From a virus: a stretch of DNA of 52,771 nucleotides. The stretch is taken from positions 1 through 52,771 of IMG/VR virus record IMGVR_UViG_3300006810_000062; one strand, given 5' to 3'. A model generated the notes under the pieces. It worked only from the letters and a program-made list of their open reading frames with translations, had not been told where the DNA came from and ran no database searches. Below are positions 3,256 through 35,011 of this stretch, in pieces. Numbering within the stretch: the stretch's first letter is position 1; each line of letters begins with the position of its first letter. A program made the position numbers and the translations under genes.

Positions 3256-4922
3256 CAACTTTTACTGGTAAGACCATTGCTAATACCTATAAAGATTTAT
3301 TACAAATAAGTAATAATAATGCAGGTATAGATACGACTCTAAGAAATATTTCTGATGGGGAAGGAACTTCTTCACCTTTACAATTATCAAATGATACCAT
3401 TAATTTAACAGGTACAATAAAACTTCAAGGTACAACTCTTACAGCTAATGTATCAGCTTTAAATAATATGGCTGACATTACAGGAGCTACAGGTTTAATA
3501 GCTGTTAATAGTGGAACAGCTTATGGTAGAACAATAGTTGTTACAGAACCTTTAAGTATAGGTAATGCTAATGGAACAGCAGGTAATCCTACAATAGGTT
3601 TAGCTACAACTGGAATAACATCAGCTACTTATGGACCTTTAGGTAAGTTTAATATAGATGGATATGGCAGAGTTATAAGTGTTAGTGTAGCTACTACAGT
3701 ATCAGCTAACTCTTTTATTGGTGGTGTATTTGATGGTTCTTCTTTAACAATAGAAAATAATACTACAATAGGTAATGATTTAATTGTAAAAGGTTCTACT
3801 AACATGAAAGCTGTTAGTGCTACTGATATTACTTTTAATAATGGAACAGCTACAACAAAAATAACATCACCTATTGTTACTGCTACTACAATTAATACAA
3901 CTAATTTAAATGTTGCAGTGGCTAGTATAACTGATTTAACTGCTGCTAATTTAACATTTACTGCTGCATCTATAGCTGAATTAAATGCAACTAACTTTTT
4001 TGCTGTAAGTGCTAATGCAACTAGATTATTTAAAAATGGAGCAGACGTAGCTACAAGTGCTACTGTTGCTGCTTTATCAACCACTATGGCTACTAGCATA
4101 GGAAACAGAACATCAGCTATTACAGCTTTATCAGCTACTATGGCTACAAGTATTGCTAATAGAACAACTGCTATAGCAACTAACGTAGCTGCCATAACAT
4201 CTATTAATACAGTTGTAACAAATTTATCAGCTACTATGGCTACAAGCATAGCTAATCGTACAGCAGCTATAACTTCTATAAATGCTATCATAGGTGATGG
4301 AGGTAACTATGCTACATCAGCAGAGCTTCATGCAGTATCTGTATTAACTAAAACAAATTTAAATGCCATAACATCTATAAATACAGTAGTGGGTAATCTA
4401 TCAGCTACTATGGCAACTTCAATAGCTAATAGAACAACTGCTATAGCAACAAATACTGCAGCTATAACATCTATTAATACAGTAGTAGCAGGAGTATCTG
4501 TATTAACAAAAACAAATCTAGATGCTATTACAAGTATTAATACAGTAGTAGCAGGAGTATCAGCATTAACTAAAACTAACTTAGATGCTGTAACAAGTAT
4601 TAATACAGTTGTTACTAATCTTTCAGCTACTATGGCAACTAGTATATCTAACAGAACAGCAGCTATAACATCTATAAATACAGTTGTTACAAACTTATCA
4701 GCTACTATGGCTACAAGTATTAACAATCGAACTACAGCTATAGCAACTAACACAGCAGCCATAACAAGTATTAACACAGTTGTTGCAGCAGTTTCTGTAT
4801 TAACAAAAACTAACTTAGATGCTGTAACAAGTATTAATACAGTTGTAGGTAATTTATCTGCAACAATGGCAACATCTATTGCTAATAACTCACCTATACC
4901 ATTTGCTATTGCATTAGGTTAA
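3252..4922 (+). CDS. repeat-rich tail fibre
   Basis: 556 residues from the ATG at 3252 (MTTFTGKTIANTYKDLLQ), preferred over 3240 because it overlaps the upstream stop. Residues 1-270 are a Ser/Thr/Ala-rich beta-type fibre. From about 275 to the end there are degenerate tandem repeats built on LSATMATSI[AS]NRT and KTNL[DN]A[IV]TSINTVV, typical of trimeric coiled shafts. The end is abrupt, with only a short PIPFAIALG tip. Probably the shaft of a tail or side fibre. Codon use is as in neighbours. Confidence 0.85.
   Translation: MTTFTGKTIANTYKDLLQISNNNAGIDTTLRNISDGEGTSSPLQLSNDTINLTGTIKLQGTTLTANVSALNNMADITGATGLIAVNSGTAYGRTIVVTEPLSIGNANGTAGNPTIGLATTGITSATYGPLGKFNIDGYGRVISVSVATTVSANSFIGGVFDGSSLTIENNTTIGNDLIVKGSTNMKAVSATDITFNNGTATTKITSPIVTATTINTTNLNVAVASITDLTAANLTFTAASIAELNATNFFAVSANATRLFKNGADVATSATVAALSTTMATSIGNRTSAITALSATMATSIANRTTAIATNVAAITSINTVVTNLSATMATSIANRTAAITSINAIIGDGGNYATSAELHAVSVLTKTNLNAITSINTVVGNLSATMATSIANRTTAIATNTAAITSINTVVAGVSVLTKTNLDAITSINTVVAGVSALTKTNLDAVTSINTVVTNLSATMATSISNRTAAITSINTVVTNLSATMATSINNRTTAIATNTAAITSINTVVAAVSVLTKTNLDAVTSINTVVGNLSATMATSIANNSPIPFAIALG
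4075..4895 (+). repeat. degenerate tandem repeats inside the fibre gene
   Basis: The DNA encodes eight LS[AT]TMATSI units and several KTNLxA[IV]TSINTVV units in varying order and spacing. Repeats are similar but not identical at DNA level (ACA/ACT, GCT/GCA swaps), so they have diverged synonymously while the protein pattern is kept. Such arrays can change length by recombination. Confidence 0.8.
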
Positions 4923-4960: not shown

Positions 4961-5296
4961 ATGGCAAATAATTTTAAGGTATCAGTAGTAGCAGGAGTAG
5001 GTACATCACCTGTGCAAGCTTATCTTTGTCCTGCAAGTCGAGAAACTACAATAATAGGTTTAAGTTTAGCAAATATATCAACATCACAAATAACTGTTGA
5101 TGCAGTATTAAGTATAGGTGATGCAGGAAATGGTGTAGCAAGATTAATTAAAGCTGCTCCTATACCTGTTGGTTCAAGTTTAATTGTAGTTGGAGGAGAT
5201 CAAAAATTAGTTTTAAATGATGCAGATCATGTAATGATTACATCAAGTTTAGCTAGTTCAGTAGATGTGGTTACGAGTTATTTGGAGATTTCTTAA
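4961..5296 (+). CDS. small structural protein of the tail/fibre cluster
   Basis: 111 residues with a clear AGGGA ribosome site. The sequence is beta-rich (VSVVAGVGTSPVQAYLCPASRET ... LSLANISTSQITVDAVLS ... GDQKLVLNDADHVMITSS) and of a type often found among marine phage structural genes. No enzyme motif. It precedes a large fibre gene with a one-base TAATG overlap, suggesting a fibre base or attachment component; the exact role is unknown. Confidence 0.8.
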   Translation: MANNFKVSVVAGVGTSPVQAYLCPASRETTIIGLSLANISTSQITVDAVLSIGDAGNGVARLIKAAPIPVGSSLIVVGGDQKLVLNDADHVMITSSLASSVDVVTSYLEIS

Positions 5297-6513
5297 TGGC
5301 TTTTTTAGGTAATCAACCTGCAGCTCAATTTACAACTATACCTACTGTTCAAAGATTTAATGGCACTGGATCAGCTACTGAATTTACATTAGATAGAACT
5401 GTAGCTAGTGTTCAATCTATAATGGTTTCAGTAGATGGTGTTATTCAAGATACATCTTCTTATACTATTCCTGATGGAGTTACTCTTACTTTTAGTTCTG
5501 CTCCTAGTTCAGGAACAGGAAATATATTTATAAATTATTTAGGTTTAGTTTTAGGTACAGTTACTCATCCTTCAACAAGTTCTTTAAGTGCAACAAGTGG
5601 TACGTTTAGTACAACTCTTGCTGTAACAGGAGAAACCACACTAGCCACTCATCTTAACATGGGTGATAGTGACATTATAAAACTTGGTGATGGTGCTGAC
5701 TTACAGATTTTCCACGATGGTAGTAATAGTTATATAAAAGATGTAGGAACTGGAAACTTAATTCTTGCTTGTCAAGATTTTTCACTCACGAATCCAGCTG
5801 TTGGTGAGAATATGATAACTGCTGTTGTAGATGGTGCAGTAACACTTTATTACGACAATAGTGCTAAGATTGCCACGACTTCAACTGGTGTTACATCAAC
5901 AGGAACTTATGTTGGAACATCAGCAGGATCAGCTTCTGCACCAAACTTTGCAATAACATCTGGTGCTTTAGGTGCTAATGGAATGTTTGTACCTTCTGCA
6001 AATACACTTGGTTTTGGCTCTGGTGGTACAGAACGTATGAGAATACACTCTAACGGAGTTGTATCTGCTTCAGCAGGGGTTGCTCTAGGTGTAGGCACAG
6101 CAAATACTTCATCAAATGTTCTTAACGATTATGAGCAAGGAACTTGGACTGCAACTTTAACAGGAAGTACATCAAACCCATCTACAGCAGTTACAGTAGT
6201 AGGAACATATACAAAAATAGGCAATATGTGTTATGCACAATTTCAATTAAGTAATGTAAATAGCACAGGTGCTGCAGGAGGAGCAAGAATTACTGGATTA
6301 CCTTTTACAGCTAGTGGTTCTCAAGCAACTGGAAACGTAATGACTTATGTACGTTTTACATTGGGTACTGGTTCTACAAATATATCTCCATATGTTTCAG
6401 GAACACAAATAGCTTTTTATCAATCAACTTCTAATGGTGGTTGGAGTGAGATAACACATAATGCTGGAACTGGTGCTTATCTATCAGCATCTGTATTTTA
6501 CAAAACTACTTAG
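5296..6513 (+). CDS. tail fibre protein
   Basis: 405 residues. N-terminal attachment-like domain (about 1-100, ending in a Gly/Thr-rich beta segment), then a shaft containing GETTLATHLNMGDSDIIKLG and ADLQIFHDGSNSYI at about 112-150, which recurs in the fibre at 10374. A C-terminal module begins around NDYEQGTWTATLTG (about 275), seen in many phage fibre tips, and ends in a beta-rich adhesin-like domain. Probable receptor-binding fibre. Confidence 0.85.
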   Translation: MAFLGNQPAAQFTTIPTVQRFNGTGSATEFTLDRTVASVQSIMVSVDGVIQDTSSYTIPDGVTLTFSSAPSSGTGNIFINYLGLVLGTVTHPSTSSLSATSGTFSTTLAVTGETTLATHLNMGDSDIIKLGDGADLQIFHDGSNSYIKDVGTGNLILACQDFSLTNPAVGENMITAVVDGAVTLYYDNSAKIATTSTGVTSTGTYVGTSAGSASAPNFAITSGALGANGMFVPSANTLGFGSGGTERMRIHSNGVVSASAGVALGVGTANTSSNVLNDYEQGTWTATLTGSTSNPSTAVTVVGTYTKIGNMCYAQFQLSNVNSTGAAGGARITGLPFTASGSQATGNVMTYVRFTLGTGSTNISPYVSGTQIAFYQSTSNGGWSEITHNAGTGAYLSASVFYKTT

Positions 6514-22669: not shown

Positions 22670-23143
22670 TTATGTGGTGTGTTCTTCCTGAGATATATTT
22701 TCCTCAACAGTTTCATCGTCATCTTCCTCAGAAAAGTAATCAGGAAAAGATGTTTGAAGCAGTGAATAAATTTTATCAAATCCTAAAGTTTGCATAACAA
22801 GAACTATATCTGCTTCTAAAGATTCAGTTGTAAACTCTTGTGAATCATCGTTGTTACCACGAACTTTTGATAATAACTCCAAAGCTTTTAAAGCAGAGTT
22901 AGAGTGTCCTGAATTTTTAGCTATATCATATTGCTTTTCTAATTCATTAATAACATCTATGTCTGTAGTAATATCAGAAGATAATTCTGCTATACGTTCT
23001 ATGCAATCTTGTTCTCTTAATAATCTAGAGCCTTGATTGTGAGCAGATGTCTCACTATATCCTGCTTCCTTTGCAGCTCTTGTAGCATTACGATGTAGGA
23101 CATAGTTCTGACAAAACTTTTCTTTACGTTCATTAAGCTGCAA
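22670..23143 (-). CDS. terS: terminase small subunit
   Basis: 157 residues. Starts at a TTG; the only upstream in-frame codons before a stop hold no other start. LNERKEKFCQNYVLHRNATR, then AAKEAGYSETSAHNQGSRLL (about 3-42), is the helix-turn-helix DNA-recognition domain of the Terminase_2 (XtmA-like) family; a helical oligomerisation segment and an acidic C-terminus (EEDDDETVEEN) follow. It should bind the packaging site and engage TerL. Oddly it is last on the leftward transcript, about 20 kb from terL and on the other strand; it overlaps the upstream gene by 11 bases. Confidence 0.85.
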   Translation of the reverse strand: MQLNERKEKFCQNYVLHRNATRAAKEAGYSETSAHNQGSRLLREQDCIERIAELSSDITTDIDVINELEKQYDIAKNSGHSNSALKALELLSKVRGNNDDSQEFTTESLEADIVLVMQTLGFDKIYSLLQTSFPDYFSEEDDDETVEENISQEEHTT

Positions 23144-25424
23144 GAGGATTTATAATATCAAGGTATGATATCTCCTTACCTCTTAATGATTTCTTATATA
23201 CTTCTGAAACTAAAGTACCTTCACCATGTACAGTGACTGAGAGATCAAGGTCTGAATTGTCAAAAAGCTTTTCACAATCTTGAGCATTAGCTAACAGTTC
23301 TCCAGTAGTCCAAAAATGTTTATCACTAGTTTCAACTCTAAAATATTTAGGCTTATCACTAATCTTTTCTTTTTTCATTTGAGGAGTTAGTTCTTTAACT
23401 GAACAATCAAAACCAAACAACTCAAAGTTTCTAAAGCCTAAGATGTGAGCTAGTGATATAGTTCTCATAGCAGCACAAGTACCACCAGCAACTAATGTTG
23501 TTCCTGTTTTAATACCTGCATTTTTATCAATAGTAATTTTATCTTTTGTACTAGCATCTCTCAATGCATCAGAGTAAGCTTGCCATCCTTTTATCTTTGC
23601 ATTTTTAGATTGTAAGTATCTAGTAACAGAAGGATCAGTCATAGAAGCTATAAGAAATAAAGTCTTATCATCTATAGTTTTAAATAAATCTTTTCGTACA
23701 ACTCCATGAGTACTCACTCCTTCAATAGGTCTTGGGTCTAATATTACACAAGCAAAGGGTTGTATTCCATGAGCTAATAATTTAGGATAACTATGTTTAA
23801 CACAGAATACTTTACCACCACTCTTTAATTTTTCTTTTAAGAGTTTAAAGTTAGTACTACTTCCACCTGATACAACAAAAGCAGTTTCTTTATTTATTTT
23901 ACCATGCTTTAACCAATCAAAATCTTTTATTAATTTTTGATTAGTGTGTATATTATCTATTATTTCTTGTTTAGGTCTAGAGTCTTTTGGATTAACAACT
24001 ATAGGCATCCTAGTTAAATCTTTAGGTAATGCAGGTGTTCCTTTTTTATTAGCAACAAAACATATGTGTGTTATACCACCACCAAATACTCGATCAGTAC
24101 TAGGAAGAACAACCTTGCCATAGGCTTTCATTTCTTTTATAAGTTTATTAACACCCATGTTACTTTCTTTAGGAAGATTTCCTTCTTGATCTTTAGAAAA
24201 GTAATCATCAAAAACTAATAAAGAAATCTTTTTTAAATTTTTGTAGTCTTCCTTAACAGTTTCATATGAATGTCCACCATCTATAAAAGCAAAGTCTGCT
24301 TTGTTAACTTCTTTACATTTAGGAATAGTTAGTTTACTATCTCCTTTATGTAGTTGAAATGTAAATGTCTTGCCTTTATTAAACACTTCTGTAGCATAAT
24401 CAGTTAACCTTTTCTTAACTGCTTCAATACTATTATGAGGTTTTGTATTCATTTCATAGTCATCACTTGCTTCAGTAGCATCTTCAAATAAATCAAAGCC
24501 TATATAGTTTACTGAATCATGGTTTTTAAAAGCAGCATCAGCCATGTCAATAGCTCTTCCACCATTCCACGTACCTACTTCTACTATATTTTTAACTTTG
24601 TAATGCTCTACAATATTACATAACTTTCTATATCTTTCTAGTTTAACATCAGGAGATACATTAGTATTACTTATATTATCTTTTAAGTTTCCTTTATAAT
24701 GAATAAAATATTCAGACAAAGGTGATTGCATAAATGCTGTCAGTCCTTTGACGTTCTCTGTCATATTATTGACAGCCATACCATGAGCTTTATAGATGTT
24801 TAAAAGTCTTTCAAAGATGAAACCATCATGCCATTCTCTATAAGCAATCGTTTCACCTATTGTATAACAACCTCTGAAGTCAGCTAATAAAGAACAAGCA
24901 TCATGATATTGTAAGTTAAATCCCATGAAGCTAGTTTCACTATAGTCTATATCAGTACGACCAAGATGTACAACACTTGCTTGAGAAGGTAACCACTTAT
25001 CAACTGCACTAACATCTAATCGTTTACTAGCTATAGTATCAGCATCAATCCATATCAACCAATTAGGTTCTTCTTTATCATAGTTCTCATCTTCCATCAT
25101 TTCAAAAGCTAAGTCTGTTAACGAGTAAACTTTATGACACCATTTAATAGCATCTAGTCTCCAGTTGTAAGACATCTTACCACCTTCAGTACCATCGTGC
25201 TTCTTCATACGTTCCCGATACTCAAGCATATCTTTTACGTCATTAAGATTCCTATAACTAACAACATCACTAGTAGGAGGTTTAAGTTTTGGTAAGTCGA
25301 AATCATGGTAGTAAGCAATGAGTTTGAAATGTTTTGGATTCCACTTCTCAACGATACTTTCAAGCATTTTTTTTGCATATGTTTCATATCCATTCTCACT
25401 AAATGAGGTTACAAAGGTGTACAT
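23133..25424 (-). CDS. three-domain glycosyltransferase-like / SAM methyltransferase / DUF115 protein
   Basis: 763 residues. Domain 1 (about 1-255) is a glycosyltransferase-A-like fold with a DxD metal site (D127-A-D129 in WIDADT). Domain 2 (about 260-460) is a class I SAM methyltransferase (IVEVGTWNGGRAID at 280-293; FAFIDGGHSYETVKEDY at about 379-395). Domain 3 (about 510-740) resembles DUF115/MptE-like proteins (AFVVSGGSSTNFKLLKEKL; VILDPRP), a family tied to flagellin and surface glycosylation. Probably adds and methylates sugars on an unknown target. It follows a separate glycosyltransferase with a GGAG site at the junction. Confidence 0.85.
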   Translation of the reverse strand: MYTFVTSFSENGYETYAKKMLESIVEKWNPKHFKLIAYYHDFDLPKLKPPTSDVVSYRNLNDVKDMLEYRERMKKHDGTEGGKMSYNWRLDAIKWCHKVYSLTDLAFEMMEDENYDKEEPNWLIWIDADTIASKRLDVSAVDKWLPSQASVVHLGRTDIDYSETSFMGFNLQYHDACSLLADFRGCYTIGETIAYREWHDGFIFERLLNIYKAHGMAVNNMTENVKGLTAFMQSPLSEYFIHYKGNLKDNISNTNVSPDVKLERYRKLCNIVEHYKVKNIVEVGTWNGGRAIDMADAAFKNHDSVNYIGFDLFEDATEASDDYEMNTKPHNSIEAVKKRLTDYATEVFNKGKTFTFQLHKGDSKLTIPKCKEVNKADFAFIDGGHSYETVKEDYKNLKKISLLVFDDYFSKDQEGNLPKESNMGVNKLIKEMKAYGKVVLPSTDRVFGGGITHICFVANKKGTPALPKDLTRMPIVVNPKDSRPKQEIIDNIHTNQKLIKDFDWLKHGKINKETAFVVSGGSSTNFKLLKEKLKSGGKVFCVKHSYPKLLAHGIQPFACVILDPRPIEGVSTHGVVRKDLFKTIDDKTLFLIASMTDPSVTRYLQSKNAKIKGWQAYSDALRDASTKDKITIDKNAGIKTGTTLVAGGTCAAMRTISLAHILGFRNFELFGFDCSVKELTPQMKKEKISDKPKYFRVETSDKHFWTTGELLANAQDCEKLFDNSDLDLSVTVHGEGTLVSEVYKKSLRGKEISYLDIINPLAA

Positions 25425-26488: not shown

Positions 26489-28419
26489 TAGCTAGAAGTG
26501 ATGTCAACTATTTCACATGCATCTGCTGTACAAGCTAACTCCCTTCCACCACTAGTTGTATCTTCTTTCTCGTAGTTAGCAAGCTTAGACCAATCAATAG
26601 ACTCAGGCATTTCATTTAATAGAGCATAATATTTTGCTTCTACTATGTCTTGATAAGGTGCTTGTTGATAAGTGTGTTCACTAAAAGGTAGAAAAGATAT
26701 GCCCGATACCTCATCAAAGTTTTCATAGACCCATGATCCTACTTCCATCCACTCTTCTTCTTTAACAGAGATAGTAACAGAAGGTTTATGTTCACACCAA
26801 TGTCTTTGATATAATAACCAAAACTTTAATTGCTGTATAGCAGTCATTTCAGTTCTAGTTATAGCTCCTGAAGGTGCTTTCATAGGGAAACTAAACACAG
26901 TAGTACTTTCAGGTTTCATTGCACAAGGTTCACTAGGTATTCCACTGTCTTGCATAAACTGTGTGAGTGGGTCTTTGTTATCACCACGTACAGTTCTTAC
27001 ATAATAAGGATTGTGTCTAGCATGTATGCCTGAAGCACTATCAACTAACTGACTAACTGTACCACTAGGTTTGACACAAGTGATTGCAGTTGACTGAGGA
27101 ATACCTAACTCTTTAGCAATCTTTTTATTAGTCTCTACTGCCACTGCTTTTAGTTCTTCTAAAGTATCTCCTAATTCGTAGTGATTATTATTAAGTTCTG
27201 GACAATCTAAGATACCTGTTAGGGAAACTCCTAACAATCTTTCTTCTTCTGTATTATCTTTCCATATCTTACGTAGATATTTAAAGTCAGTAAGAGTAGA
27301 TTGAAATGTACCTAAGATGGTAGCCATCCTAACTTTTTCTTTTAAAGATTCTATATTATCTGTAGACCTACAAACAACCTCTGTAAGATTACAGAATTGA
27401 TATGGTCTAAGTATGATTTCACTGCAAGGATTACATCCAAAGTAATGATTTGAATCTCTTCTTCCATTCTCTTCTGCCTTAGTCTTAGCAGCTTGTCTAT
27501 TAAAAATTCCTCGTTCACCTGACTTAGACTCGTATAAAGAAAGCCATTCTCTCATGAATGTACCCATCTCAGGCTTACCTTTAAATGCTACAGAGTTATT
27601 AGCTAATGCTCTCTGTCCTTCGTTCTCCCACCATTGACCTGACTTAGCATGTCTCATTTGGTCATCACCTAAGTTAGACAATGATATAAGAGCAGACCTA
27701 CGAACACCACCAACAACTACCACTTCACCAATCTTACACATGATATCGTGACACTCAATAGGAAACAATCGTCTGCCTTTAGCTCCTTTAAACTTATCAA
27801 TACAGAATTGAAACAACTCAACTAGTGGTGCAGGTCCTGATGCTCTACCACCAAAAGTTTTAAGTCTTGCACCTGCTTGCCTAACTAATGACACATCCCA
27901 TGTAGGAACTTGACCTACATACAACATAGCAATAAGTTCTCTCAATGCCTTTGCCCAACCCGGTCTACTATCACCAACTTTAATTACTGTTGTGCTGTCT
28001 TCAAAGTGTTCATTAACTATAGGTAACTTGTCTACATTCTCACGTTCAACAGAGAAGCCAACACCTGTGCCACACATAAGTATATACATGCACTCATCAA
28101 ATGAACGAGGACTATCTACAGGTATGTAGCTACAGTTGTAACCACCTACGTGACACCTATCTAAAGCAGGTCCTGAAGTCATTAAGGCTCTCATGCTAGG
28201 CATCACACCTAGATTCATAACTTGATCTCTAACCATAGTCGTTAAGGCTCTAGTCATAGTATACTTATAATTCTTTTTTAAATGAAGAGTCATGTAGTCT
28301 ATGTATCTGTCTACAGTTTCTCCCCAATTTTCTCTACGTTGATCTTCTTCTTTCCATCTTGCATATCTTGACAGAGCTATAAAATTTTGATAGTCTGTAG
28401 GTAAATAATTACTTATCAT
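26488..28419 (-). CDS. nrdJ: class II (adenosylcobalamin-dependent) ribonucleotide reductase, monomeric type
   Basis: 643 residues. Reduces ribonucleotides to deoxyribonucleotides using B12 coenzyme. The active-site set matches Lactobacillus RTPR: Cys96 (GYNCSYIP), Cys332 and Glu334 in CNPCSEI, Cys343 in FCNLTEV (same 11-residue spacing), and the C-terminal shuttle pair Cys630-x4-Cys635 (ACTADACEIV). It is about 100 residues shorter than RTPR, mostly between the first Cys and the thiyl-radical Cys. Requires a host (or environmental) cobalamin supply. Preceded by its own promoter-like sequence and AGGGGA. Confidence 0.93.
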   Translation of the reverse strand: MISNYLPTDYQNFIALSRYARWKEEDQRRENWGETVDRYIDYMTLHLKKNYKYTMTRALTTMVRDQVMNLGVMPSMRALMTSGPALDRCHVGGYNCSYIPVDSPRSFDECMYILMCGTGVGFSVERENVDKLPIVNEHFEDSTTVIKVGDSRPGWAKALRELIAMLYVGQVPTWDVSLVRQAGARLKTFGGRASGPAPLVELFQFCIDKFKGAKGRRLFPIECHDIMCKIGEVVVVGGVRRSALISLSNLGDDQMRHAKSGQWWENEGQRALANNSVAFKGKPEMGTFMREWLSLYESKSGERGIFNRQAAKTKAEENGRRDSNHYFGCNPCSEIILRPYQFCNLTEVVCRSTDNIESLKEKVRMATILGTFQSTLTDFKYLRKIWKDNTEEERLLGVSLTGILDCPELNNNHYELGDTLEELKAVAVETNKKIAKELGIPQSTAITCVKPSGTVSQLVDSASGIHARHNPYYVRTVRGDNKDPLTQFMQDSGIPSEPCAMKPESTTVFSFPMKAPSGAITRTEMTAIQQLKFWLLYQRHWCEHKPSVTISVKEEEWMEVGSWVYENFDEVSGISFLPFSEHTYQQAPYQDIVEAKYYALLNEMPESIDWSKLANYEKEDTTSGGRELACTADACEIVDITSS

Positions 28420-28450
28420 ATCTTTCCCCTTAAATTAAAAACGAAAGCAA

Positions 28451-28479
28451 ATCATATCACATAATTAAATGAAATACAA
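28451..28479 (-). promoter_or_regulatory. putative promoter for the ribonucleotide reductase
   Basis: On the minus strand TTGTAT (28474-28479), a 17-base spacer, then TATGAT (28451-28456) with an extended -10 TG one base before it. It lies in the 64-base gap between the 110-aa gene and nrdJ, about 32 bases before the start codon. Confidence 0.45.
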
Positions 28480-28483
28480 TATA

Positions 28484-28816
28484 CTAATGACTTAATACTG
28501 CATTAATTCTTTTTCTTACGTACTCGATCTCTCCTGACTTAAGAACTTTAAATGCAAACTCTTTCATGTATTTTGAATTGACTCCAGCATAATCACAAAT
28601 TATATCAAAGTCTTCAGCAGTTACTCCTATTGAAGCAAAGAACCATGCAGTAGCTCTGTCTCTTTCTAATATAGAATTATCAGGCTCACCTTTATAAGAA
28701 GGTTTAGTTGCATCTAGTAAAGCTTGTAATAAAACAGACAGATATAAAGTTTGTTCAGGTGAGCTTCTATTTTGTAGTACTTGTTTCTCAAGCTGAACAA
28801 ACTCTTTATCTAACAT
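28484..28816 (-). CDS. hypothetical protein of the nucleotide-metabolism block
   Basis: 110 residues, mostly helical: an N-terminal helix (EFVQLEKQVLQNRSSPEQTL), then RDRATAWFFASIG and DFDIICDYAGVN, and a C-terminal basic helix. Similar proteins lie between nuclease and reductase genes of T7-like marine phages; I cannot name a function. It overlaps the endonuclease gene by 7 bases. Confidence 0.8.
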   Translation of the reverse strand: MLDKEFVQLEKQVLQNRSSPEQTLYLSVLLQALLDATKPSYKGEPDNSILERDRATAWFFASIGVTAEDFDIICDYAGVNSKYMKEFAFKVLKSGEIEYVRKRINAVLSH

Positions 28817-29229
28817 TTATCAAACCATTTGTTAGGTACTGATCCTTGCTTACAGAATATAAATGAATGTTTATCACACCAATCTCCATACGTCATCTTT
28901 CCACCTTTGTATAATTTTCTATTAGGATTATCAAATACAAAACGAATGTCTACTTTAGGATGTTGGCTTCTAATAAACAAATGTTTCTTTCTGTCTTCTA
29001 ACATAAACCTTCCTTTAACTTCCAATATGATTCCATTAGGAAGTATAAAGTCAGGAATATATTTTTTATCTTCTTTCCACTCATAAGAAATTTTAAAAGT
29101 TTCATACTCATAAGCTATGTTATTCTCTTCTAGAACACATGCCATATTGTATTCTGAATTAGACCTATACTTATGAGGTATGTCTCTTTTCTTTTTCTTA
29201 AATCTAGGCATAAGAAATTTCTTCGACAT
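28810..29229 (-). CDS. endonuclease I (T7 gp3-like Holliday junction resolvase)
   Basis: 139 residues. The PD-(D/E)xK active site is intact: Glu26 (SNSEYNMA), Asp60 (YIPDFILP), Glu70 and Lys72 (ILEVKGRF). HLFIRSQHPKVDIRFVF and KLYKGGKMTYGDWCDKHSF follow as in T7 gp3. It resolves branched DNA and helps degrade host DNA. Start may be the ATG at 29229 or the second Met at 29211. It overlaps the exonuclease gene end. Confidence 0.93.
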   Translation of the reverse strand: MSKKFLMPRFKKKKRDIPHKYRSNSEYNMACVLEENNIAYEYETFKISYEWKEDKKYIPDFILPNGIILEVKGRFMLEDRKKHLFIRSQHPKVDIRFVFDNPNRKLYKGGKMTYGDWCDKHSFIFCKQGSVPNKWFDKC

Positions 29230-30091
29230 CAGGTGTCTTATATACCTGAGTTAAATACCTATTTCCATTAGCATATTTAAATACTCTTAGACCCTTTCCA
29301 TTGTTAGCATCTGACCAACAATCTTTTTTGTATGGACAATAGGCACAACCAATGGATAACTTTTTATTACCAGACTTGCCATCAGCTTCATCAGGATAGC
29401 ATCGTTCAGGTTTTATATCAGATGCTATGACATTTTTCAAATGCCTAATACGATCAGGAGCATTTATCATATGGATAGAATCTACATTACACAATGCTAA
29501 CTCACCACTAGATTTATCTACAGCAAAGAAAGCTGCTTCAGTATCCTTACCTTCTTCAGCATAGCCACTAATCTGAGCTATGTAACCAAAAGGATCATCA
29601 GTATGTAAGGTATTATCTTTAAACTTTTTAAATGCATAAGGTGAAGCAGACTTTATATCTACTAACATTCCATCTATTCTGCAATCTTTATGTCCTTTAA
29701 CACCTTCAACAGTTACTTCTTTTTGATTCTCAGTTATCTTATGACCTGCTAACTGTGTCAACAACATAAGTAAGGACTCTAACATGTGTCCATAGATAAA
29801 TTTTATTTTAGTACTCCCATTAATATCTGTAGGTTTTATATCAGATTTAATATCATACCATAACATTCTATCTTTCTTACCTATTTGAGACATACGTAAT
29901 GAAGCTTGTGACTTCTCTCTCTGTCCTTCTTTAATAGCTTGAGAAACAGAATCTCTTATGCTATCTGAAAACTGACACATCAAAGACCAATTATCTCTCT
30001 GCTCTGTATTGATTCCTTCTTCCAACATAGTATAGATATCTTTTATTAAGGTATCTATCTTTGGGTCTTTAAGTACATTTATATCCTGCAT
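29204..30091 (-). CDS. PD-(D/E)XK exonuclease with Cys cluster (RecB/Cas4-like)
   Basis: 295 residues. Nuclease core: GHMLE (about 101-105), KDCRIDGML with Asp140, and LVDIKSAS with Asp145/Lys147. The C-terminal region holds Cys231, Cys249, Cys252 and Cys258 (IGCAYCPYKKDCW), the layout of the iron-sulphur staple of Cas4/AddB-type nucleases. Together with endonuclease I it would degrade host DNA for nucleotide recycling or act in recombination, occupying the place of T7 gp6. GGAG ribosome site. Confidence 0.85.
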   Translation of the reverse strand: MQDINVLKDPKIDTLIKDIYTMLEEGINTEQRDNWSLMCQFSDSIRDSVSQAIKEGQREKSQASLRMSQIGKKDRMLWYDIKSDIKPTDINGSTKIKFIYGHMLESLLMLLTQLAGHKITENQKEVTVEGVKGHKDCRIDGMLVDIKSASPYAFKKFKDNTLHTDDPFGYIAQISGYAEEGKDTEAAFFAVDKSSGELALCNVDSIHMINAPDRIRHLKNVIASDIKPERCYPDEADGKSGNKKLSIGCAYCPYKKDCWSDANNGKGLRVFKYANGNRYLTQVYKTPDVEEISYA

Positions 30092-30092
30092 A

Positions 30093-30392
30093 TTATTCTC
30101 CTTTAGTTTCTGTAATTGATATAAGTTTTTTAAGATACCACTCAGCTTTCTTTAAGTCTTGAACACCATTCTTATATCTATATCTCCAAAGGTATTTAAT
30201 TATATTTCCTTGTAGATAATATTCCATACCATCCCCTGTAGCTGCACTGATTGCATCAATACATTCTATACCTGATTGATTGTAATGGATTGGATGATCT
30301 ACTTCTGAATTTACATTCATTTGCAGTTGTATGCCTTGTTCTTCTTCTAGTTCAAGGGTTTTACGTTTGATATATTCATTGTGTCTCTCCAT
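30093..30392 (-). CDS. DUF3310 protein (T7 gp1.7-like)
   Basis: 99 residues. SEVDHPIHYNQSGIECIDAI, then YYLQGNIIKYLWRYRYKNG, then KKAEWYLKKLI is the DUF3310 core shared with T7 gp1.7, reported as a nucleotide kinase; most members are uncharacterised. ATG at 30392 has AAGGAAG upstream and overlaps the preceding gene by 46 bases, so the 24-residue N-terminal leader may be genuine or the start may be at 30320. Confidence 0.85.
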   Translation of the reverse strand: MERHNEYIKRKTLELEEEQGIQLQMNVNSEVDHPIHYNQSGIECIDAISAATGDGMEYYLQGNIIKYLWRYRYKNGVQDLKKAEWYLKKLISITETKGE

Positions 30393-30565
30393 TTTTTATC
30401 TTCCTTTTTAATAAACACTAAGTCTTCTACAGAAGTATAACCAATTTCTTGAACAAAATATACCAACAATTCTCTTAGTTCTTCTAAGTTATCAGCAGTA
30501 CCTCTTAAGGTAGCTGATGCTTCTGTATCCAGATTATGTTTTGTTAGTTCAAATTTTGTAGTCAT
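30347..30565 (-). CDS. hypothetical small acidic protein
   Basis: 72 residues, with AAGGAG before the ATG. Mixed charged helix (ADNLEELRELLVYFVQEIGY), then SVEDLVFIKKEDKK. Unrecognised. The frame is open upstream back to the SSB stop (30665) without a further start codon, so an extended product is possible only by readthrough. Overlaps the DUF3310 gene. Confidence 0.7.
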   Translation of the reverse strand: MTTKFELTKHNLDTEASATLRGTADNLEELRELLVYFVQEIGYTSVEDLVFIKKEDKKWRDTMNISNVKPLN

Positions 30566-30664
30566 TAGTTTCTCCTTAAAATAATAGACAACCCACCCAA
30601 CTTCCTGTCTATCGTACTGCCTACGTTTTACAAATGTAAGAGCAGTTCCCTTGATAATGGTTAC

Positions 30665-31138
30665 TTAATTTGAAGCACTAACTAAGGGGATATCGTCATC
30701 ATCAAATGCATTAGATGCAATGTACCCATCATCAATAACATCAAAGTCTTCTCCAGCTTCATACTCGATTAGATTAATAACTTGCATAGCTTGAAGGTCA
30801 GCACCTATACCTTTCTTACCTGCATACTCCCAATCAAATGATTTGAATAAAACTCTAACGTCAGAACCATTACCAACATTTACTTCACTTAGTACGTGGT
30901 TCTTAGAATCTTTAAGAATAGGTGATTTATTCTTGCTACCATCCTTACGATATACTTTACGTTTGATTCTAACAAAGCTACCTCTGTCATCATCCTTGTT
31001 CATAATAGTAAGACCCATCTCTTTAGCCTTCTCTAACTCTGCTCCTTCAACTGCTAAGTCAACCTGCCACACTGGCTCGAATGTTGAGTTAGGTGAAGAG
31101 ATACTTGCCCAATGGGCTTTTCCTGATAATACTGCCAT
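30665..31138 (-). CDS. single-stranded DNA-binding protein (gp2.5-like)
   Basis: 157 residues. Beta-rich OB-fold-like body (GKAHWASISSPNSTFEPVWQ, FVRIKRKVYRKDG, DVRVLFKSFDWEYAGKKG) and an acidic C-terminal tail (SNAFDDDDIPLV), as in phage SSBs, where the tail contacts polymerase and helicase. It lies just downstream of a promoter and directly after the polymerase. GGAG site before the ATG. Identification by context plus tail; overall fold is inferred. Confidence 0.75.
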   Translation of the reverse strand: MAVLSGKAHWASISSPNSTFEPVWQVDLAVEGAELEKAKEMGLTIMNKDDDRGSFVRIKRKVYRKDGSKNKSPILKDSKNHVLSEVNVGNGSDVRVLFKSFDWEYAGKKGIGADLQAMQVINLIEYEAGEDFDVIDDGYIASNAFDDDDIPLVSASN

Positions 31139-31192
31139 TTATTTTCTCCATTTAAATTATGTAGTTTAAATACTACTTTCTTGATTGTTATA

Positions 31193-31220
31193 ATTATATA
31201 CTATATATATAGTATGTCAA
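31193..31220 (-). promoter_or_regulatory. strong sigma70-type promoter with palindromic spacer, upstream of SSB
   Basis: On the minus strand TTGACA (31215-31220), a 16-base spacer and TATAAT (31193-31198): both hexamers are perfect. The spacer is an AT palindrome (ATACTATATATATAGTAT) that could bind a dimeric regulator. The ATG of the SSB lies about 54 bases downstream. It sits in the only clear gap within the replication genes. Confidence 0.65.
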
Positions 31221-31224
31221 CTTA

Positions 31225-31980
31225 TTAATGAGTCTCTGCCCAATTATTTCCAATTTTATATTCACTATCCAAAGGACATAGAACATTCAGTTCTTTTTGT
31301 ACAAGCTTCATAGCTTCTTGAGTTAATCTTCCAAAGCTTTCTGCTTGATCTGTACGAACTTCAAACTGATACTCATCATGTATTGATGCAACAAGCTTAT
31401 AGTCATAAGACTGTTGTACCTTCTTAGTTATTTGACGTAACCATTCTTTACAAATGATTGCACCTGCACCTTGTAATAATTGATTCATACTAGAGTGCAT
31501 CTGTCTTATCTTTAGAAGTCTACCATCTAATGCTTTGATGTATCCACTTCTAGCTGCCTTGTCTACTTTATCTCTTAAAGATTTTAAGGCAGGCATGTTG
31601 GTCATAAACTTATTAGTAATTCGTTGACCTTCTTTTCTTCCTCCACCTACAATAGAACCTATCTTGTCTGCTCCTGCACCATATATCAAAGCATATATAA
31701 AAGTCTTAGCTTGGTCTCTTGTCTCTAGACCTGCAGCTTTTTGGTTAGCAGTATGTATGTCACCATCTACAACCTCATTAATAAACTTTTTATCTCCCAT
31801 ATAATGAGCAAGACATCTTAGTTCTAAAGATGAAGCATCACATCCTAATAATTTATAGGATGAATTACTTGGTATCCAAACTGACCTACACTCTTTACCA
31901 TAAGGTGAATAGACTGCAGGTATTTGAGCCATGTTTGGTGAGTTGTGTGCCATTCTTCCTGAGATAGCTCTCAATGTCAT
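31225..31980 (-). CDS. DNA polymerase I-like, polymerase part (second fragment)
   Basis: 251 residues from the first in-frame ATG. Motif A (CDASSLELR, Asp48/Glu53), motif B (RDQAKTFIYALIYGAG, Lys92/Tyr100) and motif C (IHDEYQ, 201-204) of family A DNA polymerases are intact. The open frame continues upstream to 32163 in the frame of the exonuclease fragment, interrupted only by one TAA. Starting here would remove 61 conserved residues (GWKPTNLTPTGHA ... KRVSQINSWI), and no ATG, GTG or TTG lies between. So this is either one broken gene, a readthrough product or a sequence error. Confidence 0.85.
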   Translation of the reverse strand: MTLRAISGRMAHNSPNMAQIPAVYSPYGKECRSVWIPSNSSYKLLGCDASSLELRCLAHYMGDKKFINEVVDGDIHTANQKAAGLETRDQAKTFIYALIYGAGADKIGSIVGGGRKEGQRITNKFMTNMPALKSLRDKVDKAARSGYIKALDGRLLKIRQMHSSMNQLLQGAGAIICKEWLRQITKKVQQSYDYKLVASIHDEYQFEVRTDQAESFGRLTQEAMKLVQKELNVLCPLDSEYKIGNNWAETH

Positions 31981-32163
31981 AACTCTACCATGAACTTTAC
32001 CATCTTCTTGTACAACATCTATCCAAGAATTAATCTGTGAAACTCTTTTCTTTAGTAATAGATATTGACAAATCTTTTGGGCTTCAGGTATATCAACTTT
32101 CTTTAATGTACCTTCATCAACAATAGCATGACCTGTTGGTGTTAAGTTAGTAGGCTTCCAACC

Positions 32164-32874
32164 TTATTCCATGAGACGTTTAGCTATCTGTTGTCGTGAT
32201 CCGGGATTAAAGACTTCTACTTTATCTTGTAATCTTTTACCAGTAGCTTCAGAAAATCTTTCATATGTAATAGGTGGAAAAATTTCTTGCATCTCTGTTT
32301 CGATAGATGAAGCTTCTTCTTCTAACTTAGCTGACAAACAAGAAGCTTGACTTACATTTAAAGTAAAACCATTCTTCTCTTGTCTATCTACTATAGCTCT
32401 TACTTGATGTTCTAAACTTATACACTTAGATGAAAAACTTTTAAGTTTAGTCTGTAAGTATTTGTATAGCTTAGTAGTTAACTTAACATCATTGACACAA
32501 TAGTTAAGCATGCCTTGAGTATATACAGAGAAGTCATTACATTCTTGCTTTGGAAAACCTAATCTCTTTCCCCAAGCATCTAAAGAATGACCACCATCTA
32601 TACTTGCATCAGCTAACTGTGATAATATTAAGGTGTCTCTTATTTTCTTCAAAGGTATTTGACTACCTAACAGTTCATTAAGAACAGGTGCATCAAAGGA
32701 TACTCCATTATGCATCACAAATATATCTACACTTTTAGACCAATTAGCAAAAGAATCTAATGTATCTTTGTGCCATACAACTATCTCACCTGTATCTATA
32801 TTTTGTGCTACAATGCAGTGTATTACTTTAGCTTTGATGGCATCTGTCTCTATGTCTAATGTAAATCTTCTCAT
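32164..32874 (-). CDS. DNA polymerase I-like, 3'-5' exonuclease part (first fragment)
   Basis: 236 residues. Proofreading motifs: FTLDIET (Asp7/Glu9), MHNGVSFDAPVL (Asn55 to Asp61) and YCVNDVKLT (Tyr125/Asp129). It ends ...QQIAKRLME then TAA exactly where the family continues into G-W-K-P-T; the next codons after the TAA read GWKPTNLTPTG in the same frame. The start ATG overlaps the upstream stop (ATGA). The undivided protein would be about 549 residues, compact for the family (T7 has 704). Confidence 0.88.
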   Translation of the reverse strand: MRRFTLDIETDAIKAKVIHCIVAQNIDTGEIVVWHKDTLDSFANWSKSVDIFVMHNGVSFDAPVLNELLGSQIPLKKIRDTLILSQLADASIDGGHSLDAWGKRLGFPKQECNDFSVYTQGMLNYCVNDVKLTTKLYKYLQTKLKSFSSKCISLEHQVRAIVDRQEKNGFTLNVSQASCLSAKLEEEASSIETEMQEIFPPITYERFSEATGKRLQDKVEVFNPGSRQQIAKRLME

Positions 32875-33347
32875 GTCTCTACCAATTCTGCCTTCTCATA
32901 AGGTATATGAAAGAATACTTCTCCTTTAGTAATGTATCTTCCATAAGCTTCTTTGACCTCAGATTCAGCTACTATATTATCTTTAATTCTCCAAGCTTTC
33001 TTTAGGTCTTGTCTTAGTACATAGAAGTTAAAGAATATATTATCACCTTCCATGTCTTGTATTTTATTTATAAGTCTTCTCTTTCTGTATGGTATTCTGA
33101 TCTCTTTCCAACTAGGATTCCAATCACCTTTCCATCCACTTTTGATTTCAACTTCTGAGTAATATATATTATCGTTCTTTTTACTCTCTATGTCAAACCA
33201 ATAATTTTCTTTCATGTTAATTATTTCGTGACCATTTTTAATTAGATAGTCTGATATAGTTTTCTTAGCTATACCATCTGCTAAATTATATGTAGTTAAA
33301 TTAAACTTAGCCTTGACTGCTCCTTTAATAGGTTGCAGTTTTTCCAT
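32871..33347 (-). CDS. hypothetical, possible PD-(D/E)XK nuclease
   Basis: 158 residues from the ATG at 33347 (GGGAG upstream; an upstream TTG at 33353 is less likely). Alternating beta strands and charged residues with NYWFDIESKKND and YSEVEIKSGWKGDW, where D ... E-x-K could form a nuclease site. It sits between primase-helicase and polymerase, coupled to both by overlaps. The nuclease idea is weak; otherwise unrecognised. Confidence 0.75.
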   Translation of the reverse strand: MEKLQPIKGAVKAKFNLTTYNLADGIAKKTISDYLIKNGHEIINMKENYWFDIESKKNDNIYYSEVEIKSGWKGDWNPSWKEIRIPYRKRRLINKIQDMEGDNIFFNFYVLRQDLKKAWRIKDNIVAESEVKEAYGRYITKGEVFFHIPYEKAELVET

Positions 33348-35011
33348 TACCAATCTCCCATAACATCTACTTGTTCATTGTCTTTAGTTTCAAAAGGATT
33401 GTCTATCTCTGACAACCTACCTGTATCAGTATCGTATAGTAAGTAACCTGCTACACCTGTTTCACCTGCATATCTATTCTTTAAGACTCTTACTGTGGTG
33501 GTGTTAGCTTGTACTTTGTCTTCTGCTTGCTGATCTCTTTCTAATCCTATAACTGCATCTGATATTTGAGCAATAGAATGAGAACCTCTCAACATAGATA
33601 AAGATATTTCTTTACCTTGCTCTTGTCCTTTATCTCCACTAGCTCTTCGTAAGTGAGATACAAGTAACATAGCACACCTAGTTTCTTCTACTAAAGAACG
33701 TAGCTTTGTCATTAGCTGATCTATATTACGTCTTTCATCTTCACCTTCTAAACCTGATACCAATATAGACAAGTGATCTATAAGTATAAACTTACAGTCC
33801 AAAGCCTTAACCATATACCTAACTCTGTTGAGTATCTCGTCAGTAGTTATAGAACCAAAATGATCGAAAGCAAAAAACCTACGACTACCTATTGTCTGTC
33901 TTTCAAACTCTCTCAACTGTTGCTCTGTATATTTTTTCCTAACTTCATTGATATATATTCTATCACTAGCTGCCACAGACATAAGATGAAAGGCAGTCTG
34001 CTTTATGTTTTCTTCTAATGAGAATACACCTACATTATGTTTGGTATTCTTTAGTAAATGAAACATAAGTTCTCTCATCAAACTAGACTTACCTGCACCT
34101 GTACCTGCAGTAAAGGTAATTAACTCTCCTGTTCTTATACCAAACAGTTTCTTATTTAAACCTTCATAAGGATACAAACAAGTTTCTACTTCTTCTTCTT
34201 TGTAAAGTCTATCACTTATGTCAGCTAAGTTGTAGATACCTGCAGGTGTGTAAGGTTTAGCTTCCCACCATAGTCTAGTAAACTCTTCTCGTTTATTCTG
34301 ACACAGATATTCATTGGCATCTTTTAGTTTTAAGTCTACTATCTTACATCTATTAGGCTCAAAGATTTGTGCTACTTGGTTGGCAGCTTTCTTTCCATGC
34401 TCGTCACTATCAAAACATATAACAATATTCTCAAATGAATTTAAGTATTCATAGCTAGACTTGATATCTTTTAATGCTGATTGACAACCACTCTTAATAG
34501 AAACTACTGACCACTTAGAACCTAACAGTTCATAAGCTGACATAGCATCTAACTCACCTTCACATATAGTAATATACTTTCCTCTTTGATTAAACTTATT
34601 CTGTCCAAACAAAGAACCTTTAGGAAAGTTTCCTTCTGTCATAAAAGATTTGTTCTCTATGTTACGTATCTTGTTTGCTACATGAGAACCAGTATTATCA
34701 TAGTAAGGATAGATATGTTTGATAGACTTACCTTGACTATCTCTTACCAACTGTACGTTAAAGAAGTCACACGTTTCTTTCTTGATCTTACGATCCAACA
34801 AAGGTTCTATGTTTCCTTTTGTAAAGTGATTGTGAACCACACCTTGAATAGGTGCTTGTCTTGGTGCTTGATCCATGTTTTTATTCCCTTTAAAATTATT
34901 ACATACAAAGCAATAGGTATTACCATCCTCATATAATACATTGCCATCTGAGGATTTGCAGTTATCACAGTATCCCCTACTGACTGCCTTCGACTTTTGT
35001 CCTTTTTCCAT
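33347..35011 (-). CDS. primase-helicase (T7 gp4-like)
   Basis: 554 residues from the ATG at 35011 (GAGG upstream); an ATG at 35050 lacks such a site. Zinc-binding primase domain: Cys15, Cys18, Cys34 and Cys37. TOPRIM: CEGELDAMS (Glu151) and CFDSDEHGKK (Asp201/Asp203). Helicase: Walker A TAGTGAGKSSL (301-311), Walker B KFILIDHLS (407-415), then SHLRRASGDKGQ. It unwinds DNA and makes primers for lagging-strand synthesis. Size equals T7 gp4 (566). Overlaps the following ORF by a few bases. Confidence 0.95.
   Translation of the reverse strand: MEKGQKSKAVSRGYCDNCKSSDGNVLYEDGNTYCFVCNNFKGNKNMDQAPRQAPIQGVVHNHFTKGNIEPLLDRKIKKETCDFFNVQLVRDSQGKSIKHIYPYYDNTGSHVANKIRNIENKSFMTEGNFPKGSLFGQNKFNQRGKYITICEGELDAMSAYELLGSKWSVVSIKSGCQSALKDIKSSYEYLNSFENIVICFDSDEHGKKAANQVAQIFEPNRCKIVDLKLKDANEYLCQNKREEFTRLWWEAKPYTPAGIYNLADISDRLYKEEEVETCLYPYEGLNKKLFGIRTGELITFTAGTGAGKSSLMRELMFHLLKNTKHNVGVFSLEENIKQTAFHLMSVAASDRIYINEVRKKYTEQQLREFERQTIGSRRFFAFDHFGSITTDEILNRVRYMVKALDCKFILIDHLSILVSGLEGEDERRNIDQLMTKLRSLVEETRCAMLLVSHLRRASGDKGQEQGKEISLSMLRGSHSIAQISDAVIGLERDQQAEDKVQANTTTVRVLKNRYAGETGVAGYLLYDTDTGRLSEIDNPFETKDNEQVDVMGDW

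Follow-up and report, generated by a model that had tools for sequence, protein, structure and literature searches.

The polymerase frame and its internal stop

The DNA polymerase gene in the virus record IMGVR_UViG_3300006810_000062, from a marine phage, is interrupted by an in-frame TAA, which raises the question whether the stop is read through, whether the polymerase is made as two proteins, or whether an ordinary gene has been damaged. The DNA analyzed, termed the window, is the whole stretch of 52,771 nucleotides (positions 1 to 52,771 of the record). On its minus strand a single T7-like family A polymerase frame runs from the ATG at 32874 to the TAA at 31225. The frame has 550 codons, corresponding to 549 residues when the interrupted codon is counted, and contains one TAA in addition to the terminal one. 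This internal TAA is codon 237 (32166-32164), and GWKPT comes directly after it. The features of the locus are as follows.

31225..32874, minus strand: T7-like family A DNA polymerase gene (frame reading, Pfam and PHROG matches, T7 alignment)
32164..32166, minus strand: internal TAA, codon 237 (AAA in same-strain contig L080; Lys in 80/80 same-clade relatives)
32167..32874, minus strand: N-terminal piece, with the 3'-5' exonuclease domain and the start of the thumb region
31228..32163, minus strand: C-terminal piece, with the rest of the polymerase domain; motifs A, B and C intact
31978..31980, minus strand: first in-frame ATG past the stop, codon 299, within the conserved polymerase sequence VMTLRAISGRM

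The initial annotation described exonuclease and polymerase domains in one frame with a single TAA at codon 237. Coordinates and frame were found to be as claimed, and reading of the minus strand confirmed that the TAA stands just before GWKPT. It was also claimed that no ATG, GTG or TTG follows for 61 codons and that the ATG at 31980 is inside the conserved region. This agrees with the mechanically listed ORFs, which are 32164-32874 (236 aa) and 31225-31980 (251 aa, from the earliest of these start codons past the stop).

Within a single phage family, the upstream piece (236 residues) corresponds to the exonuclease portion and the downstream piece (312 residues) to the polymerase portion. Since both match phrog_17 at consecutive profile positions (670-911 and 914-1233), they represent one gene with one interruption. 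The 3'-5' exonuclease domain (PHROG 17, E 1.5e-42) is in the same frame as the polymerase domain; the stop cuts the chain here, while relatives carry both domains in the same chain. The downstream piece matches Pfam DNA_pol_A (PF00476, E 5e-50), and its catalytic motifs A (DASSLELR), B (RDQAKTFIYALIYG) and C (HDE) are intact. The Pfam match and the T7 alignment place the gene among the T7-like family A polymerases, which are defined by this domain with motifs A-C.

T7 gp5 has the same exonuclease-polymerase order, its FNP-SR...GW-PT segment and motifs A-C align with the window, and both halves of the window gene are conserved and collinear with it. In contrast to the window gene, gp5 is uninterrupted (704 residues) and carries an alanine at the position aligned with the stop, which replaces the residue before G-W-x-P-T (T7 Ala349, counted along the alignment). 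We take this position to belong to the thumb region of the T7 polymerase. That motifs and halves are otherwise conserved fits a fresh lesion.

Codon 237 in relatives and in a same-strain contig

The nearest isolates by polymerase were the HTVC103P-type pelagiphages HTVC103P, HTVC104P and HTVC115P, which are collinear over the full length with 47-48% amino acid identity. Their polymerase gene adjoins a primase/helicase gene, as in the window. HTVC103P-type polymerases are single open frames, and those of the set carry Leu, Phe or Arg at residue 237, compared to Lys in the clade of the window. We carried out the alignment with sister polymerases that had been proposed as a check, and it returned a sense codon throughout. 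All 80 same-clade relatives from IMG/VR (L001-L080; 68-100% amino acid identity over the polymerase) had AAA or AAG (Lys) at codon 237. All 82 polymerases of the HTVC115P-query set, among them that of HTVC115P and one from a MAG contig, had Leu, Phe or Arg and never a stop. Leaving L080 aside, the position was read as sense in 161 of 161 relatives checked. When 2.9 million viral contigs were scanned with a degenerate pattern for a stop at the site, six matched, none of them in a polymerase. With the lysine-codon version of the pattern, 59 added loci among the matches listed by both scans encode polymerase, all with Lys. In the bacterial and archaeal genome collection the sole relative was L199, from the Sneathiella sp. 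MAG PAKP01000072.1, with a polymerase 52% identical to that of the window; it is probably a contig of phage origin that ended up in the MAG bin. As no relative has a stop at the site, comparison of the sequences indicates that the change is derived, comprises a single base and is confined to this record.

The contig IMGVR_UViG_3300008012_003165 (L080; 4,443 bases) was assembled separately and aligns without gaps to window positions 27909-32351. The two differ by one mismatch in 4,443 bases, located at 32166, which is the first base of the TAA; the codon in L080 is AAA (Lys). L080 was the only contig found when viral contigs were scanned for the exact sequence with any base allowed at the changed position, a scan that may leave out the window's own record. 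It is the one same-strain contig besides the window record that covers the site. Because the flanks of the codon are identical on both sides in L080, nothing around the stop is adapted to it, be it a start site, a leaky context or a recoding element.

Programmed or suppressor-tRNA readthrough, yielding a short exonuclease together with the full polymerase, would account for a frame that is open and conserved on either side of the TAA. Conserved readthrough stops were looked for, and a stop at codon 237 was found in 0/80 same-clade relatives, 0/82 members of the HTVC115P set and no polymerase of the degenerate scan. A leaky context, a downstream element or a suppressor tRNA was also not found: the context is the same as in L080 with its sense codon, RNA folding around the stop was ordinary (z -0.6 and -0.7), and the window has no tRNA genes. 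TAA is moreover the usual stop of the window and closes 53 of 72 annotated ORFs. A genome-wide reassignment of TAA to sense was rejected on this basis, in support of the earlier statement that there is no code change. Readthrough is consequently considered extremely improbable.

An evolved two-gene polymerase was judged equally improbable. In its favor, breaks in the thumb region are on record elsewhere: in Roseobacter phage CRP-5 (L201, 1501-3397) the polymerase is annotated as two overlapping ORFs, gp12 and gp13, broken in this region like that of the window. The CRP-5 ORFs differ by a change of frame and the second has its own overlapping start codon, whereas the window has an in-frame stop; CRP-5 was set aside as a parallel for these reasons. 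CRP-5 itself may have a real split gene or a frameshift. A split polymerase should have a separate, conserved start for its C-terminal part. In the window 61 codons past the stop lack a start and the earliest ATG is within conserved sequence, and the close relatives all have single-gene polymerases, apart from isolated stops elsewhere in two. Literature searches for split phage polymerases and for premature stops in viral contigs turned up no case that applies directly. Of the four options left by the initial annotation, recent mutation and assembly error are favored by the sense codon in L080 and by the lack of a stop in any relative. Readthrough and split polymerase, which are very unlikely, lost ground through the unchanged flanks, the lack of a tRNA in the window and the ordinary folding.

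Origin of the stop

Altogether, it is almost certain that the TAA is a private and very recent nonsense change, either an artefact or a dead end, in what is an ordinary, uninterrupted polymerase in the population. The phage population would thus carry an intact T7-like DNA polymerase gene, from which the window record differs by a single A-to-T change on the coding strand at 32166 that turns Lys237 (AAA) into TAA. Translated as written, the gene would give a 236-residue exonuclease fragment and possibly a fragment from the codon-299 ATG without exonuclease and thumb; presumably neither fragment could replicate the phage.

One nonsense change is not in itself surprising. Other same-strain contigs cover much of the remaining window at 99.9-100% identity, and among the approximately 50 differences between these contigs and the window there was no further stop. 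In the compared stretch, 5.7% of the single-base changes that could occur would make a stop in some ORF, so one nonsense change among about 50 differences is within expectation. The two halves of the polymerase clearly belong together, yet the single nonsense change is not statistically odd. Isolated stops were also found in 2 of 88 other same-clade polymerase matches (L010 and L079), which indicates that such lesions occur in roughly 1-2% of polymerase records; none were found in the 46,012 codons of the HTVC115P set. L010 has a TAA at 3592 (codon 97), inside the conserved GGHSL segment, and L079 a TAG at 2647 (codon 176). Both are likely private lesions of the same kind.

We regard as the probable origin of the stop either a wrong consensus base, owing to thin coverage or to a sequencing or amplification error, or reads supplied at this site by a rare defective genome. 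Second in line, and distinctly less probable, would be a real but unfixed null mutation. The two were ranked in this order because a lytic phage population would not be expected to carry a lethal allele as its majority base. The quality of the rest of the record points somewhat the other way. Genes compared with relatives showed no further stops, broken frames or truncations found in the window alone, and poor overall record quality was ruled out on account of this and of the 99.9-100% same-strain agreement. The assembly is otherwise good, which somewhat favors a real base over a careless error.

About a third of the weight given to a null mutation falls on its persistence by complementation, with polymerase supplied by co-infecting intact phages. 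The clean record, in agreement with the same-strain contigs, would allow for a real base, and L080 is an intact sibling from the same strain. The lesion is a single base with nothing else decayed, there is no sign of long persistence, and no second record carries it. Persistence by complementation is therefore unlikely. Any functional role of the stop is highly improbable, and marginally more so is an ochre allele that is real and common locally, in a polymerase-defective "cheater" replicating through host readthrough or intact siblings. Such an allele, if real and common, would represent a phage naturally defective in its polymerase and dependent on its siblings.

Rather than a new type of gene, the stop most likely marks an isolated error or a dead-end mutation in an ordinary polymerase. 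Before a single in-frame stop in a metagenome-assembled phage gene is attributed to readthrough, recoding or gene splitting, same-strain contigs should be checked; in the present case a single contig, L080, settled the question.

The phage and other parts of the window

The window has a GC content of about 29-36%, and family matches identified a T7-like primase/helicase, a class II ribonucleotide reductase, a terminase, a portal and a major head protein. A group IV of uncultured genomes, with unknown hosts and a more distant relationship to the HTVC103P-type phages, has been described (PMC8528129), and the phage of the window may belong to this group.

A small minus-strand gene directly upstream of the polymerase (32871-33353) differs from L001/L002 by 1 of 483 bases, compared to 99 of 1647 for the polymerase and 69 of 1704 for the primase. 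This sharp mosaic boundary is probably due to recent recombination; the encoded protein had no family match. Another small minus-strand gene (28810-29229) is open in the window, while the alignment crosses a stop codon in 15 of 53 relatives; this gene may be variable or frequently truncated. The minus-strand gene at 23133-25424 encodes a 763-residue protein with Methyltransf_24 and MptE-like domains and was present in only three of the fetched loci. On the plus strand, 5296-6513 encodes a 405-residue protein that is nearly identical among same-strain contigs, whereas its identity drops to about 54% in contigs with flanking stretches 95-97% identical in DNA. This candidate for a rapidly evolving module may be a tail or receptor-binding protein.
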